Shown piece by piece: positions 1-52,463 of a stretch of DNA of 54,976 bases. The DNA is from Pirellulales bacterium (GTDB lineage: Bacteria > Planctomycetota > Planctomycetia > Pirellulales > JAICIG01). A program made the position numbers and the translations under genes. The stretch is taken from NCBI GenBank assembly GCA_035533075.1, contig DATLUO010000234.1:1-54976 (forward strand), read 5' to 3'. Below the pieces are notes generated by a model, which saw only the letters and a list, made by a program, of their open reading frames with translations, searched no databases and was not told the DNA's origin. Position 1 is the stretch's first letter. Every line of letters begins with the position of its first letter.

Positions 1-3000
1 CGGTCGCGCAGCTCGTAAAGTGGCCGAGACACCTCCACCTTTACCAGGTCCCAGTTCGGCTCGTTCGAGTGCCGCTTCAGCTCGGCGCGCATGCCGCGGG
101 CACGCTCGCGGATGCGGGCGGCCTCGGCACGCAGTTCCGGACCGTCGACCATCTCTTCCACGTCGCGCAGCCGGTCCGACCAGTCGCGGAAGTCTTCGCC
201 GGCCAGCGGCGACCAGGGCCGGTTGCCCGGCTCGAAGAACGGAGCGAAGCCGCCTGGGCCCGTGGCCGTGTTGGGATTCGACTGGCTGCGATTACCGCCG
301 CGCCGTGAACTTGATTGCTGCTGGCCACCTTGGCCCTGCTGGCCACGGTTGGAGCCGCCGGCTTGTTCGCCCGGTTGATTTCCCTGGGGCATAGGCTGGC
401 CGTCCTGCTGAGGAGCGTCCTCACCAGCCGGTTGATTCGACGACCGTGTCGCGTTCGCTGGCGGCTGGCCCCCGCCGTTTGCCGGCTGCGGCTCTGGATT
501 GCGCTGCTGTTGATTGCCCCCGCCGGGTTGACGTTCAACTTGTTGTTGCGAACCTTCATCACCCTGGTCCCTTTCGCGACCGTCGCGTCGGTCGACCTGA
601 CCAGTATTGCGAGCGATCTCGTCGCCAAGCTGATCGGCCAGACGATCGAGCTCTTCACGCGCACGGCGGAGGGCCTCGGTGTCGTCGCCCAGCACGCTCT
701 CGGCCGCTCGCTCGATGCCCTGACGCAACTCGCCGATGCCTTTGCCGGCAATGCGCTCCTGGCCGCGGGCATCGTCGGCCAGTCCGCGCCGCACGGAAAG
801 CTCGGCGGCCTCCAAGGCCCGGTCGAGGTTCTGCTCCTGGATTTTGCGGGCCGTGTCGTAAAGCTGCTCGGCCAACAGCGGTTCGGTCGGCTCCGCTTCT
901 TCGATCGTCTCACGCATGCGATTTAGCAGCTCTCTCAGCCGTTCTTTCTGCTGCGCCAACTCAGCCGGCATCTTTTCGCGGTCGTTGTCGTCTCGCAACG
1001 ACCTTGTAGGCCCGGCACTCCGTGACGGGGGCGCCAGCCCGTCGCCTGCGGCGACGGGTTCTCCGCCACGGAGTGTCGGAGCTACGGTAGGCTCGGCCAG
1101 ACGTTCGGCGATCTCGTGCTCTTTTTCGTCCAGCTCGCGGGCACTGTCACGCATTTCGCGCATCTGGTCGGTGAACTGACCCGATGTGCGGCGGCGGAAT
1201 TCATTTCGCAGATCATTGAAATCGCGTTCGGCGCGCGTGCCCGCCGCGGCGGCCTGCGAAACCCTTTCCTGGTCGAGGGCCTCGCTGGCTCGCTGCACCT
1301 GATCGCGGGTCTGGTCGAGCTGCTGCCGCGCGTCGGCCATCCGTTCCTGGTTTTCGGGCTGGTCCATGCGGGCCTTCAGCTCGTCGGTGTCGCGCAGGAT
1401 CTCCTGTTCCTCTTCACGCAGCCGCTTGAGCTGCCGGCGAATCTCGTCACGCTCCGGCTCGCTCTTGGCCTCTTCCAGAGCCGATTGCAATTCCTTCAGC
1501 CGCTCGTTCAGATCGTTCTGACGGCGGGCCAACTCGCCCAACCGATTCAGCACCTGCCGCGTCTCGCGCTCTTGCGTTTGCTGCGGCGACTGTGCCGTGC
1601 GCTGTGTCTCATAGCGGTTTTCGTCGTTCTTCAGCTCCAGTTGCTGCAACTGCTGCTGCGAGCGGTTCGAGGCGCCGGCCATCCCGCCACCCTGCTGCCG
1701 CTGGCTGCGAATGACGCTGTGCTCGCGGGCACGCAGCTTGAGCAACGCCGAATACGCCGCTTGCTCCGCGGTCAGCGCGGGCTTGAGCGGCCCGACCGCC
1801 GGCGCATCATGGGCCGCCTGCAAGTTGTCGAGCGCCTGCTGCATCGCCCGCGTCACTTCGCCCGCGTGCGCTTTCGACTGCGGGTCTTGTAACTTCTCGG
1901 CCAGCGACTCGGCCTGTTCCAGGGCCGAAGACTGCGACTCGCGGACCGACTGCACGTCGGGGGCGAACGCGCTCGACGGCTCGGCCGGCAACTCGCGGCG
2001 AATCAGTTTCCAGGTGGCGTTGATGATGTCCTTTTGCAGTTGGGCCAGCTTCTCGGCGGCCTGGGCGTTTTCGGCCCCTTGCTGCTGTTGCTGCTGCGAG
2101 CCGCCCGGCGGCTGCTGGCCTTGCCTGAAGATTTCTTCGAAGGGCCGGACTTCGGCAAAATACATGTCGCTTTCGGTGCGGCGGGGCTGGCCGTCGGGAC
2201 CGGCGTCTTCGGCCCAGAAGTGATACGACAGCAATTGGTCCGGCTCCGCCTTGAGGTCCTCGAAGCGAATCACGTGCATCATCTCACGGCGTTCTTTCGC
2301 CGCGGCGTTTTCGCCCAGCACCACGTCAGTCGGCTCGCCGCCGGCCAGTTCATAGGTCAGCCCGAACCGCTTCAGCCCAAAATCGTCCCACGCCGTTGCC
2401 TTGACTTCGGTCTCTTCCAACGGCGATACCTCCACATCGTGCGCCGGGAAAACCAGCTTCAGGTCGGGCGGCTTGTTGGGCAACACGTTGATGGCAAACT
2501 CCACCGGGTTCTTGTTCTGCCGGCCCTTGTCATCGACGAGCCGCAACCGCAACCGCCGCGACTTCTGACACGTCAGCTTGGTCTGCCAGGTGAGCGCGTC
2601 GTCATCGGTCGCGGCGAGCGCGATCGGTTCCACTCCTTCTTCGGTCAGCGTGGCCGAGACCACTGCTTTGTTCAGATGGCAGAGTAGCGTCAACTCGGTG
2701 CCCTCGACGGCCGAGACGGTGCGCACGTCCTGCACCAGCCGCTCTTCGAGTCCCGTATAGGCGGGATAGACGAGCTTCGCGTCGGCCCGGATCAGTTTGG
2801 GATACTCGAACACCGTCACGTGGTAAGTGTCGCTGGTGTGGCCCGTCAGCTCGACGCGATAATCGAGCGGCCCGTCGACCACGGGGATGCGGCCGCCGAA
2901 CACCGGATCGTCGAGGCTCTTTGACATTTTAAGCACTACGGCACGGCGTTGTTGCGCGTTCTTGGAGGATGGCCTTCCTAGGCCGTCACCCTTGCTACTG

Positions 3001-3710
3001 GACGGCCTAGGAAGGCCATCCTCCTTTTCTCGTCCGCCAAATGCATAGACGAGCGTCGCCTCGGCCGGTTCGTTTCCCTGAAACCGGGCCAGCACCAGCA
3101 GGCTGGTGCCGCGTTCGATCTCGGTGTTGCCTGGTTCGATGGTCACGGAAAACTGGCCGGTCGGCTGCAGGCCGTCCTTCGCCAGCGATGCCGCGGTGGC
3201 GCGTTGCGAGACCGACTGCGAGCTGAGCGCCGCCAGCACGAACAGCAGCAGCACGCCGGCCGCCAAGTTGGCGAATATGGCCGTCGCAATCCGCCGCGTG
3301 GGCACGACGCCTTGCCAGGCGTGCCCGTAGGCGTGGTTGAGCGCCTGACGAATGACGCGGTCTTGCAGAAAGCCGAAACGTCCGTCGGGCAGCGTGGGCC
3401 GCTGTTCCATCGCGGCCAGCAGGCATGAGCCAAGTTCGGGATAGGCCGCTTCGACCCTTCGGGCCACCCAGTGATAGTCGCCCGCCGAGCGAACCGCCAG
3501 CCACGTGCAGAGCGCGGCGGTGACGAGTGCCAGGCCGAGAGCCAGCGGCACCGCGCCGGGCGGAAACCAACCGATCGCCCGGTGCAGGCCGAGCATGGCC
3601 AGCCCGCACCCCGCGGCCAGCAGCCAGGCAAACGAGAGACCGCGCCAAAACCGCAGACGCCGAAACCGGGCCGCTACTTTTTCGAGTTGTTGGCTAAGGC
3701 GGTGTTCCAT
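1..3710 (-). CDS. Large DUF4175-like membrane/coiled-coil protein, C-terminus outside window
   Basis: One frame stays open from the ATG at 3710 to the left edge (at least 1236 residues). Hydrophobic helices lie near residues 22-43, 52-73 and 142-163. An extracytoplasmic region follows, then from about residue 560 a Gln/Glu/Arg-rich coiled-coil region and a low-complexity Gln/Gly/Pro/Asn tail. This matches the long DUF4175-type proteins common in Planctomycetota, often found near MoxR/BatA genes; their biochemical role is not known. Two palindromic DNA insertions lie in frame, around residues 229-249 and 878-899. Plus-strand open frames across this gene are antisense shadows of its Gln-rich codons. 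Identity as a gene is firm; the family name is from memory. Confidence 0.85.
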   Translation of the reverse strand, partial: MEHRLSQQLEKVAARFRRLRFWRGLSFAWLLAAGCGLAMLGLHRAIGWFPPGAVPLALGLALVTAALCTWLAVRSAGDYHWVARRVEAAYPELGSCLLAAMEQRPTLPDGRFGFLQDRVIRQALNHAYGHAWQGVVPTRRIATAIFANLAAGVLLLFVLAALSSQSVSQRATAASLAKDGLQPTGQFSVTIEPGNTEIERGTSLLVLARFQGNEPAEATLVYAFGGREKEDGLPRPSSSKGDGLGRPSSKNAQQRRAVVLKMSKSLDDPVFGGRIPVVDGPLDYRVELTGHTSDTYHVTVFEYPKLIRADAKLVYPAYTGLEERLVQDVRTVSAVEGTELTLLCHLNKAVVSATLTEEGVEPIALAATDDDALTWQTKLTCQKSRRLRLRLVDDKGRQNKNPVEFAINVLPNKPPDLKLVFPAHDVEVSPLEETEVKATAWDDFGLKRFGLTYELAGGEPTDVVLGENAAAKERREMMHVIRFEDLKAEPDQLLSYHFWAEDAGPDGQPRRTESDMYFAEVRPFEEIFRQGQQPPGGSQQQQQQGAENAQAAEKLAQLQKDIINATWKLIRRELPAEPSSAFAPDVQSVRESQSSALEQAESLAEKLQDPQSKAHAGEVTRAMQQALDNLQAAHDAPAVGPLKPALTAEQAAYSALLKLRAREHSVIRSQRQQGGGMAGASNRSQQQLQQLELKNDENRYETQRTAQSPQQTQERETRQVLNRLGELARRQNDLNERLKELQSALEEAKSEPERDEIRRQLKRLREEEQEILRDTDELKARMDQPENQERMADARQQLDQTRDQVQRASEALDQERVSQAAAAGTRAERDFNDLRNEFRRRTSGQFTDQMREMRDSARELDEKEHEIAERLAEPTVAPTLRGGEPVAAGDGLAPPSRSAGPTRSLRDDNDREKMPAELAQQKERLRELLNRMRETIEEAEPTEPLLAEQLYDTARKIQEQNLDRALEAAELSVRRGLADDARGQERIAGKGIGELRQGIERAAESVLGDDTEALRRAREELDRLADQLGDEIARNTGQVDRRDGRERDQGDEGSQQQVERQPGGGNQQQRNPEPQPANGGGQPPANATRSSNQPAGEDAPQQDGQPMPQGNQPGEQAGGSNRGQQGQGGQQQSSSRRGGNRSQSNPNTATGPGGFAPFFEPGNRPWSPLAGEDFRDWSDRLRDVEEMVDGPELRAEAARIRERARGMRAELKRHSNEPNWDLVKVEVSRPLYELRD
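1016..1075. repeat. Nested palindromic insert inside a coding region
   Basis: Outer arms 1016-1024 and 1067-1075 (9 bp) enclose inner arms 1038-1046 and 1050-1058 (9 bp). Like the one at 2964-3024, it keeps the reading frame and adds a Gly/Ala/Pro-rich peptide of about 20-25 residues to a coiled-coil region. Confidence 0.8.
2964..3024. repeat. Perfect inverted repeat inside a coding region
   Basis: A 24-bp arm at 2964-2987 is perfectly complementary to 3001-3024, with a 13-nt loop. It sits in frame in the large minus-strand gene and encodes a Gly/Pro/Ser/Arg-rich stretch between two ordinary segments of the protein. Hairpins of this kind are usually intergenic. Confidence 0.9.
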
Positions 3711-15062: not shown

Positions 15063-15357
15063 TGACGTTCGCCACACGAACCCGAAGCGCCAGCGAGGCC
15101 ATGTCAAGCGGAAGTGCCGCTTATCGTGCTGCGCGTGTGACGGGACGCCGCGGAGCGGCGCGGGAGTTAAGCCGTGGGCGCCAGCCCACGGTTAGCTTGC
15201 CGCGAGTTTGTAAAGCCGCGGAGCGGCGACGGAGCGTGGTGTGCCATTCTCCGTCGCCGCTCCGCGGCTGTGGTGATTTGGCCGACGATGTCCGTGGGCT
15301 GGCGCCCACGGCTAAACTCCGTTGCCCCTCCGGGGCAGGCGAAAGCAGAAAGCAAGT
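15063..15357. repeat. Nested inverted repeats between porin and cytochrome genes
   Basis: Two hairpins are nested. The outer arms are 15170-15191 and 15292-15313 (22 bp, perfect). The inner arms are 15214-15234 and 15249-15269 (21 bp, perfect). The outer arm is itself nearly self-palindromic (GTGGGCGCCAGCCCAC). I see no gene here apart from the end of the porin and the leader of the next gene. Confidence 0.85.
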
Positions 15358-20763: not shown

Positions 20764-20915
20764 GCGACGATAAGCTCGATCTGGGCGAGGAACAAAACCA
20801 ATATGGCATGATAGAAAACCGGGTGCATTCGTGGAAGTACCGGAAGGTTGCCCGTTCGATGGGCCACAACGTAGACTGGGTTATGTCTAGGCCGCCAAGG
20901 CAACGAACGTAGACT

Positions 20916-21000
20916 GGGACCAGCGAGCTTGCGAGCGCCGGCCCACCGTTTCGGAGGCATTGGGCGATGGTGGGCCGGCGCTCGCAAGCTCGCTGGTCCC
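20916..21000. repeat. Perfect 32-bp-stem inverted repeat
   Basis: Arms 20916-20947 and 20969-21000 are perfectly complementary over 32 bp, with a 21-nt loop. It lies between the divergent dapA and the gene at 21036, and is preceded by two copies of the 11-mer ACGTAGACTGG (20870 and 20907). The stem is unusually long and not followed by a T-run, so it looks like a dispersed palindromic element rather than a terminator. Confidence 0.9.
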
Positions 21001-21035
21001 ACCCTACGACTGCGACATAAAAACCGAGATACCGA

Positions 21036-34425: not shown

Positions 34426-34515
34426 TTTGTCACCGCTACGACTGGGCTTGCCCCAGTCGAGCGCTGACTGGCAGGCTAGAACGGCGCCGCGAAGCTGCCC
34501 CCGCACCGCCTTCCG

Positions 34516-34563
34516 CATCCTGCGTCTCGTCCGCCGTCGACGCGGCGGACGAGACGCAGGATG
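34516..34563. repeat. Perfect 21-bp-stem inverted repeat
   Basis: Arms 34516-34536 and 34543-34563 pair perfectly around a 6-nt loop; the pairing continues outward with one mismatch (CTTCC/GGAAG). No gene end is adjacent, so it looks like a dispersed palindrome. Confidence 0.9.
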
Positions 34564-34980
34564 AGGAAGGCCGATTAAGAGTGGAAAGGATCTTGACGGC
34601 CGCCGTCTAGCCTGTCCGTCAGCGCCCCACCGGCACAAGGCCGGCGGTGGCGGAGCGGAACACATTCAACCATGATTCCTTGCAAAGCGAGTCGCCGGGG
34701 TTGAATGCGGCAGGATGAACTCCGAACGGCGCTTATGTGTTACTTTGTTCATTATTTACATACAAATAGCTGCAACAACCGGCTGGCCGTCGTGTCGGCC
34801 AATTTGGCAGCCCGACGGTTGACAGGGCAGGCGGCGCGGAGCGAGCCGACCAAGCTCTTTGAAAAGCAAAAATTGGTTGTGATCCGTAGTCGGTGGTCCG
34901 TGGCGAGTCGCCTGTTCGTGTAGAATGCCGGCAGAATGAAATACCTACATCTGCCGGCGTTGAGAGATGAGGGATGAGAG

Positions 34981-50949: not shown

Positions 50950-52360
50950 CGAGCCGAACGTTCTCTATTCACTGCAGAAGAGCCTGACCAGCTCGACTCT
51001 GGAGGTGCTGACGGCCAAGACGGGCAAGGAAGGCGTCGATCGCGTGGTCGATTCGCTTCCGGACGCGGTGATTGTCGACGTGCGGCTGCCTGACATGTCG
51101 GGCCTCGACGCCTACGACCGCATCCGCCAGATCGACCCGCGGTTGCCGGTGATCGTGATTACGGCCTTCGCCAAGACGGAGACCGCCATTGAGGCCATGC
51201 GCCGCGGCGCGTTCGAGTATCTGCTCAAGCCGGTCGATTTTCGGCGGCTGCGCGAGGTGGTGGCCAAGGCGCTGGAAGTCAGCCATCTCAGCCACGTGCC
51301 GGCGGTGATCAGCGAAGAGGAGCCGACCGATTCGCCGGCCGACCGCATCGTGGGGAACTCGCCGGCGATGCAAGAAGTCTATAAAGCCATCGGTCGCGTT
51401 GCGCCGCAGAACGTGACCGTTTTAATCGTGGGCGAAAGCGGCACCGGCAAGGAGCTGGTGGCCCGCTCCATTTATCACTACAGCCGCCGCAGCCAAGGCC
51501 CGTTCCTGGCCATCAACTGTGCCGCGATCCCCGAAAACTTGCTGGAAAGCGAACTGTTCGGCCACGAGCGGGGGGCCTTCACCGGCGCCGACCAGCGGCG
51601 GATCGGCAAGTTCGAGCAGGTCAGCGGCGGCACGATCTTTCTCGACGAAATCGGCGACATGAGCAGCGCCACGCAGGCCAAGGTGCTGCGGCTGCTGCAA
51701 GAACAGCGCTTCGAGCGGGTGGGCGCCAACGACACCATTCAGATCGACGTTCGCGTGATCGCGGCCACCAACAAGAACCTGACGGACCTGGTCGAACAGG
51801 GCCGTTTTCGCCAAGATCTCTTTTATCGCTTGAACGGCTTCACGCTCGCGTTGCCGTCGCTGCGCGATCGGCGCGAAGACATTCCGCTGTTGATCGAACA
51901 CTTCTTGCGGCTGTTCAACCGCGAACTGGGCAAGAACGTCCGCTCCATCACGGCCGATGCGCGGCGCCTGCTGGAAACGCACGATTGGCCGGGCAACGTG
52001 CGCGAGCTGCAAAGCGCCCTCAAGTTCGCCCTGCTGCATGCCACCGGCGAGGTGCTGACGCCCGACTGCCTGCCGGAAGTGTGCCGTCCGGCGGCCGCGG
52101 AATTGGCCGCGCCCGGCGCCGGCGCGCTCGACGTGGGACGCTACACGCGCCAGTTGCTCGAACTGAACGAGCCGCACATCTATCGGTTGGTTTCCGCGGC
52201 GGTCGACCACGTCGTGCTCGACGAAGTGTTGCGGCACGTGAAAGGCAACCAGCTCCAGGCCGCGGAATTGCTCGGCATCTCGCGCACCACGTTGCGGGCA
52301 AAGCTGCGCACGCTGGGGCTGGCCGTCGAAAAGTGGCTCGCCGACGGGAACGGGGCGTGA
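50924..52360 (+). CDS. Sigma54-dependent NtrC-family response regulator
   Basis: 478 residues from the ATG at 50924. Receiver domain with phospho-acceptor Asp52 in [11 protein letters not shown]+ domain with Walker A GESGTGKE (170-177), GAFTGA (217-222, contact with sigma54) and Walker [10 protein letters not shown]-terminal FIS-type helix-turn-helix (about 445-470). It activates transcription at sigma54 promoters after phosphorylation by the overlapping kinase. The intact GAFTGA indicates real activator function. Targets cannot be told from this window. Confidence 0.95.
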
Positions 52361-52456
52361 GGCATCAGGCGTCAGGCGTCAGGCATCAGGCATCAGGCGT
52401 CAGGCGGTCCTGAACCCTGAACCCTGAACCCTGAACCCTGAACCCTGATACCTCAC
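52360..52456. repeat. Degenerate heptamer tandem repeats in a convergent gap
   Basis: Seven AGGCRTC-like heptamers run from 52360 to 52408, then five CCTGAAC heptamers from 52409 to 52443. The region begins with GTGAGGCATCAGG (52357-52369) and ends with a near-complementary CCTGATACCTCAC (52444-52456), so the whole can fold back. It lies between two convergent genes (ending at 52360 and 52464) and may serve as a bidirectional terminator. Confidence 0.85.
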
Positions 52457-52463
52457 GCCTCAC

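Follow-up and report, generated by a model that had tools for sequence, protein, structure and literature searches.

Inverted doublets of REP-like hairpins in frame within genes of a Pirellulales genome

The window analysed here is a stretch of 54,976 nucleotides from a Pirellulales genome, at one end of which lies a gene on the minus strand (3..3710) that runs off the end of both the window and its contig. The gene encodes a DUF4175-like planctomycete protein with an N-terminal helical region, the match to DUF4175 (PF13779) being weak (E 1.1e-5) and below the curated cut-off. Within this gene an inverted-repeat search finds, at 2964-3024, two arms of 24 nt (2964-2987 and 3001-3024) which are 100% complementary to each other and are separated by a 13-nt loop, ACCCTTGCTACTG (2988-3000), as an earlier note on this DNA had described. 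That note had also held the reading frame to be intact through arms and loop with the addition of a Gly/Pro/Ser-rich stretch, and the ORF is indeed open throughout. Perfect 24-bp stems with loops of up to 20 nt are expected only about 2e-8 times in 55 kb of the window's composition, and the palindrome, folded as DNA, reaches -31.2 kcal/mol as compared with -8.5 in shuffles (z -12.5). Further along the same gene, at 1006-1085, there is a second in-frame doublet which belongs to another family, with arms GTAGGCCCGGCACTCCGTGACGG and GTAGCTCCGACACTCCGTGGCGG tagged GTAG...CTAC; it is missing from all five of the orthologues that cover the site.

At the palindrome the translation reads ...GGREK-EDGLPRPSSSKGDGLGRPSS-KNAQQ..., in which EDGLPRPSSSKGDGLGRPSS corresponds to residues about 230-249 of the host protein. 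Following the comparison with orthologues that the earlier note had suggested, these residues are found to be without counterpart in 14 orthologous sequences, where the loop is either short or unrelated in sequence. The difference in length between the window gene and its orthologues varies, since the host loop itself varies. In the AlphaFold model the insert forms a disordered loop between the strands at 218-224 and 258-261, with pLDDT below 50 at residues 229-254, as compared with a mean of 84 for a model that is otherwise confident. When used as a query, the window protein matched many unrelated loci through the inserted peptide alone.

The arm itself has an internal structure. Folded alone, it gives four unpaired nucleotides (a GGAG tag) followed by an 8-bp stem closed by a 4-nt loop. 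In the left arm, read on the plus strand, the tag lies at 2964-2967, the stem at 2968-2975 and 2980-2987 and the loop, TCCT, at 2976-2979; the right arm is an inverted copy on the minus strand, with its tag at 3021-3024 (CTCC on the plus strand). The earlier note had proposed a search of the genome with the arm, and the arm proves to be far from unique, with 78 + 81 matches at up to 2 mismatches (0 + 0 for a reversed control), equivalent to about 76 sites in this 8.5-Mb genome. Both a chance and a unique palindrome are ruled out by the small expectation given above and by the dispersal of these matches. Full doublets number 49 in the genome, and their spacers fall into conserved classes, the commonest of which is the 13-nt spacer of the window element (28 of the 49), with minor classes at 12 and 20-22 nt, and single arms are also frequent. 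The tag is GGAG in nearly all copies and GCAG or GTAG in a few.

Which of the two possible stems is the conserved one can be read from stem pair 10-19 of the arm. Across the 98 arms of the 49 doublets this pair is C-G in 85, G-C in 12 and T-G in 1, and is never unpaired, while the exchange disrupts the long arm-to-arm stem in 12 of the 49 doublets. In other words, the swaps keep the arm hairpin and break the long stem. It is thus the hairpin of the arm that is conserved, and these compensatory changes inside the arms rule out the 24-bp stem in that role. The perfect long stem of the window element is the homodimer case of an inverted pair of REP-like hairpins. Thus the earlier reading of an in-frame element akin to those of Rickettsia is supported, with the correction that its unit is a REP-type inverted doublet and not one long palindrome.

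For the coding calls, 132 long ORFs served to train a codon model, and the calls hence follow codon score rather than annotation. On this basis at least 21 of the 76 sites lie in ORFs that score as coding to either side of the site without a change of frame. In other terms, 28% of arm sites are clearly in frame in coding sequence, as compared with 64% of random window points that are coding by the same kind of criterion, such that the arm family is about twofold depleted from genes, though present there. The statement in the earlier note that palindromic elements are normally excluded from coding DNA is accordingly borne out as regards depletion and not as regards exclusion, and the look into other coding regions which it recommended brings up many further genes with the element in frame.

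All loci taken together hold 80 distinct doublets, of which 18 are in frame. In 15 of these 18 intragenic cases the span is 1 mod 3, as compared with 32 of the 62 other doublets (one-sided Fisher p = 0.014), and the same bias is found in this genome alone (p = 0.028). Stop codons alone do not force such a preference, since 2 mod 3 spans, from a direct reading of the arm sequence, open more frames through the arms than 1 mod 3 spans. If about four bases of each span belong to the target, the predominance of 1 mod 3 spans in genes means that the number of bases gained is divisible by three.

The host proteins are diverse. In UvrA the insert lies between the interaction and DNA-binding domains, and in RecQ a single arm lies between the zinc-binding and RQC domains. 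Several Ser/Thr kinases are hosts as well, and in kinases, as in UvrA and RecQ, the insert has Pfam domains on both sides; in PutA the insert is inside the aldehyde dehydrogenase (Aldedh) domain. Further hosts are an ABC/GNAT protein, a squalene-hopene-cyclase-like protein, an O-antigen ligase, a mannosyltransferase-like protein and glycosyltransferases, while the ORFs at loci L065, L067 and L069, which have no Pfam match, may be spurious frames. At least twelve unrelated proteins share a near-identical peptide, which falls in a linker or loop wherever its setting can be judged, and other frames of the element (GGWPSQAV...) are used at L068, L069 and L092. In G001, a genome of the same family, the PutA orthologue runs straight through the insert site, the net difference, extrapolated from the aligned flanks, being 69 nt for a 70-nt span; with one codon of local change it would be 66 nt. 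The ABC/GNAT gene of G001 has a different insert at the same position.

Beyond this genome the arm is rare. Among 56 relatives scanned it is common only in G001 (36 matches, up to 1 mismatch) and occurs singly in one other. A scan of 84,980 species returned 77 stretches, of which 68 are in four Planctomycetota MAGs (30 in JAIOPX, 24 in JAICLL, 8 in JAKFUF and 6 in SXOA) and nine are single occurrences elsewhere, those in Verrucomicrobia and Actinobacteria possibly coming from mis-binned contigs. In this regard, the contig of L238 is binned as Actinobacteria (21-64-8) and has 85-88% identity to the planctomycete loci L065 and L067, with which it seems to share the arm position, either from mis-binning or from transfer. 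The three loci were rejected as an empty-site comparison, their flanks being homologous with the arm apparently at the same place and with no empty site among them. The genomes are mostly MAGs, and a DNA comparison in search of an exact empty site gave none, the relatives being only about 70-80% identical and the host loops variable.

Several other repeats are found in the window. At 20908-21008 there is a long inverted repeat (95%) with GTAG-tagged arms, GTAGACTGGGACCAGCGAGCTTGCGAGCGCCGGCCCACC, and at 34508-34571 a 29-bp inverted repeat, 97% complementary, with a 6-nt loop, both non-coding by codon score; the former belongs to a high-copy family, the core 15-mer of which has 24 copies in 343 kb sampled. 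Nested palindromes with the motifs GCCGCGGAGCGGCG and CCGTGGGCGCCAGCCCACGG occupy 15147-15336, and related motifs flank a Y1 transposase gene at L094 (about 1240-2170). Arrays of CTGAACCCTGAACCC and ATTTTGGATTTTGGA are very frequent in the genome (window 52354-52459 and many other loci), and in kinase linkers parts of them are read in frame as protein (NPKSKIQNPKS).

From the foregoing, the element is likely to be a non-autonomous mobile doublet of REP type, similar to REPINs, of which intragenic copies are tolerated where the frame and the position in a loop allow. Such a doublet would consist of two inverted 24-nt units, each made up of a GGAG tag and an 8-bp hairpin, with a short spacer between them, and a single-strand transposase (HUH/Y1, IS200/IS605-like) acting in trans may have moved it into the gene. 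With a 13-nt spacer the span is 61 nt, of which about four bases (one copy of the tag) would come from the target, such that the gene would have gained 57 nt, or 19 codons; with the same spacer each strand has a single open frame (EDGLPRPS...DGLGRPSS). Selection would presumably have purged copies that landed in another phase, had another spacer or fell within a folded core, while those in flexible linkers and loops would persist as roughly neutral peptide decorations. As for the borders, REPIN excision in Pseudomonas was reported to leave behind about 6 bp from one of the ends (PMC3116915). Here the net gains differ between orthologues, because the host loops vary in length.

The Y1 part of this mechanism was approached through the transposase genes themselves. 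No GGAG arm was found beside any of 43 Y1 transposase (PF01797) loci in five genomes, 12 in this genome and 31 in the four other bearers (G001 and three further MAGs), the assemblies being incomplete. The flanks of Y1 genes carry other repeats, GCCGCGTAGCGGCG at L094 and AGCCGGCTTTAGCCGGCT at L095 and L167. An arm-like stretch at L098 and L101 was rejected as a flanking copy, as it is formed by the transposase's own C-terminal codons. The characterised TnpAREP of E. coli tolerates no change of GTAG (PMC8266576). The GGAG tag and the lack of an arm-flanked Y1 locus count against mobilisation of the Y1 type.

A more far-reaching proposal is that of a REP-like family with a dedicated mobiliser, inherently tolerant of genes through its standard size (57 nt or 19 codons gained, one tag being part of the target, and a single open frame on each strand), for which insertion into coding sequence is a normal part of the life cycle and which steadily adds peptides to planctomycete proteins. 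We consider this unlikely. The GTAG family at 1006-1085 would be its extreme case: it has 29 arm matches in the genome, and long coding ORFs hold seven of its eight full doublets here, as well as a number of single arms, all in frame. Among these hosts are UvrA, Lhr-helicase and kinase genes. In G001 none of eight examined doublets of that family lies in a clear coding ORF. The intragenic spans of the family are mostly 2 mod 3, which does not fit a simple four-base rule and so counts against the main reading given above.

That the element is instead a classic MITE, in other words a short relative of a DDE-type IS that a double-strand transposase moves by way of the 24-bp terminal inverted repeats, would agree with its two long inverted terminal arms, its short length and its dispersed copies. 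It is nevertheless improbable, since the arm hairpins are kept by compensation at the cost of arm-to-arm complementarity, single arms are widespread, as with REP singlets, and the 49 doublets show no target-site duplication, with exact 4-nt duplications numbering 1 as compared with 0.3 expected. Selection at the level of the protein, by which several proteins took up a Pro/Gly/Ser peptide as a linker, is very improbable, for while the recurrence of the peptide in linkers or loops of a dozen or more unrelated proteins speaks for it, 55 of the 76 sites failed the in-frame coding criterion, the peptide changes with the spacer and with the frame, and orthologues do without it. A regulatory element in RNA or DNA (a terminator, gyrase or mRNA-stability site) that is found in genes incidentally would account for the very stable hairpin and has parallels in roles proposed for REPs elsewhere (PMC3733652), but its position relative to genes is not fixed, and the mid-gene in-frame copies with their frame-preserving bias of span point to insertion and coding selection, which makes this reading highly doubtful.

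In-frame palindromes within genes are best known from the reduced genomes of intracellular Rickettsia. The family described here resembles the Rickettsia elements RPE-4 and RPE-6, classed as CGTC REPs in PMC3733652, in being in frame in unrelated genes, in adding about 20 residues, in having no known adjacent transposase and in being lacking from orthologues. It differs from them in sequence, in that the unpaired tag is GGAG, with a CGTC-like arm end paired within the stem, in that it forms a doublet whose arms each carry this tag and an 8-bp stem, and in that its host is a planctomycete with a large genome. The precedent of Rickettsia put forward in the earlier note therefore holds for the behaviour of the planctomycete element, while in-frame REPs outside Rickettsia were already known (PMC3733652).

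Indeed, Di Nocera et al. 2013 (PMC3733652) described GTAG and CGTC REPs, heterodimers and CGTC REPs without a dedicated transposase, with intragenic in-frame REPs outside Rickettsia in Opitutus terrae, Thioalkalivibrio and Thauera; most in-frame cases were in O. terrae and R. conorii, uvrA was among the targets, some genes had double inserts, and Rhodopirellula baltica was found to carry GTAG REPs. A partial literature search turned up no account, other than that work, of palindromic repeats lying in frame in genes of planctomycetes. The intragenic GTAG REPs of Opitutus terrae and Thioalkalivibrio are like the present elements in forming in-frame dimers, in their insertion into uvrA and in the occurrence of two inserts per gene, and unlike them in belonging to other sequence families; here the hosts also include PutA, RecQ, kinases and the DUF4175-like gene. 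The combination of in-frame cases, insert-free orthologues, two families in one gene and non-coding control copies makes the gain of residues and the insertion borders measurable. It is also a warning that searches are misled by repeat-derived segments within annotated planctomycete proteins.

The closest comparison is with REP doublets, REPINs and head-to-head GTAG REP dimers (PMC3116915, PMC3733652), for which Bertels and Rainey 2011 (PMC3116915) described the mobile unit as an inverted doublet that is excised asymmetrically. The likenesses are a short hairpin that has an unpaired tag of four nucleotides on its 5' side, inverted pairs with a conserved spacer alongside singlets and heterodimers, and a high copy number over a narrow taxonomic range. 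The differences are that the tag here is GGAG (rarely GCAG or GTAG) and not GTAG or GTGG, that no copy lies beside a RAYT (Y1) gene among the PF01797 loci of the five genomes, and that a sizeable part of the copies is intragenic. REPs and REPINs are mainly extragenic; of the sites here, 28% are clearly in frame in coding ORFs. The family works like known REPs but without the GTAG tag and the RAYT partner, and it is therefore best read as a planctomycete variant of intragenic REP doublets, of a kind with the in-frame REPs already reported, rather than a separate category.
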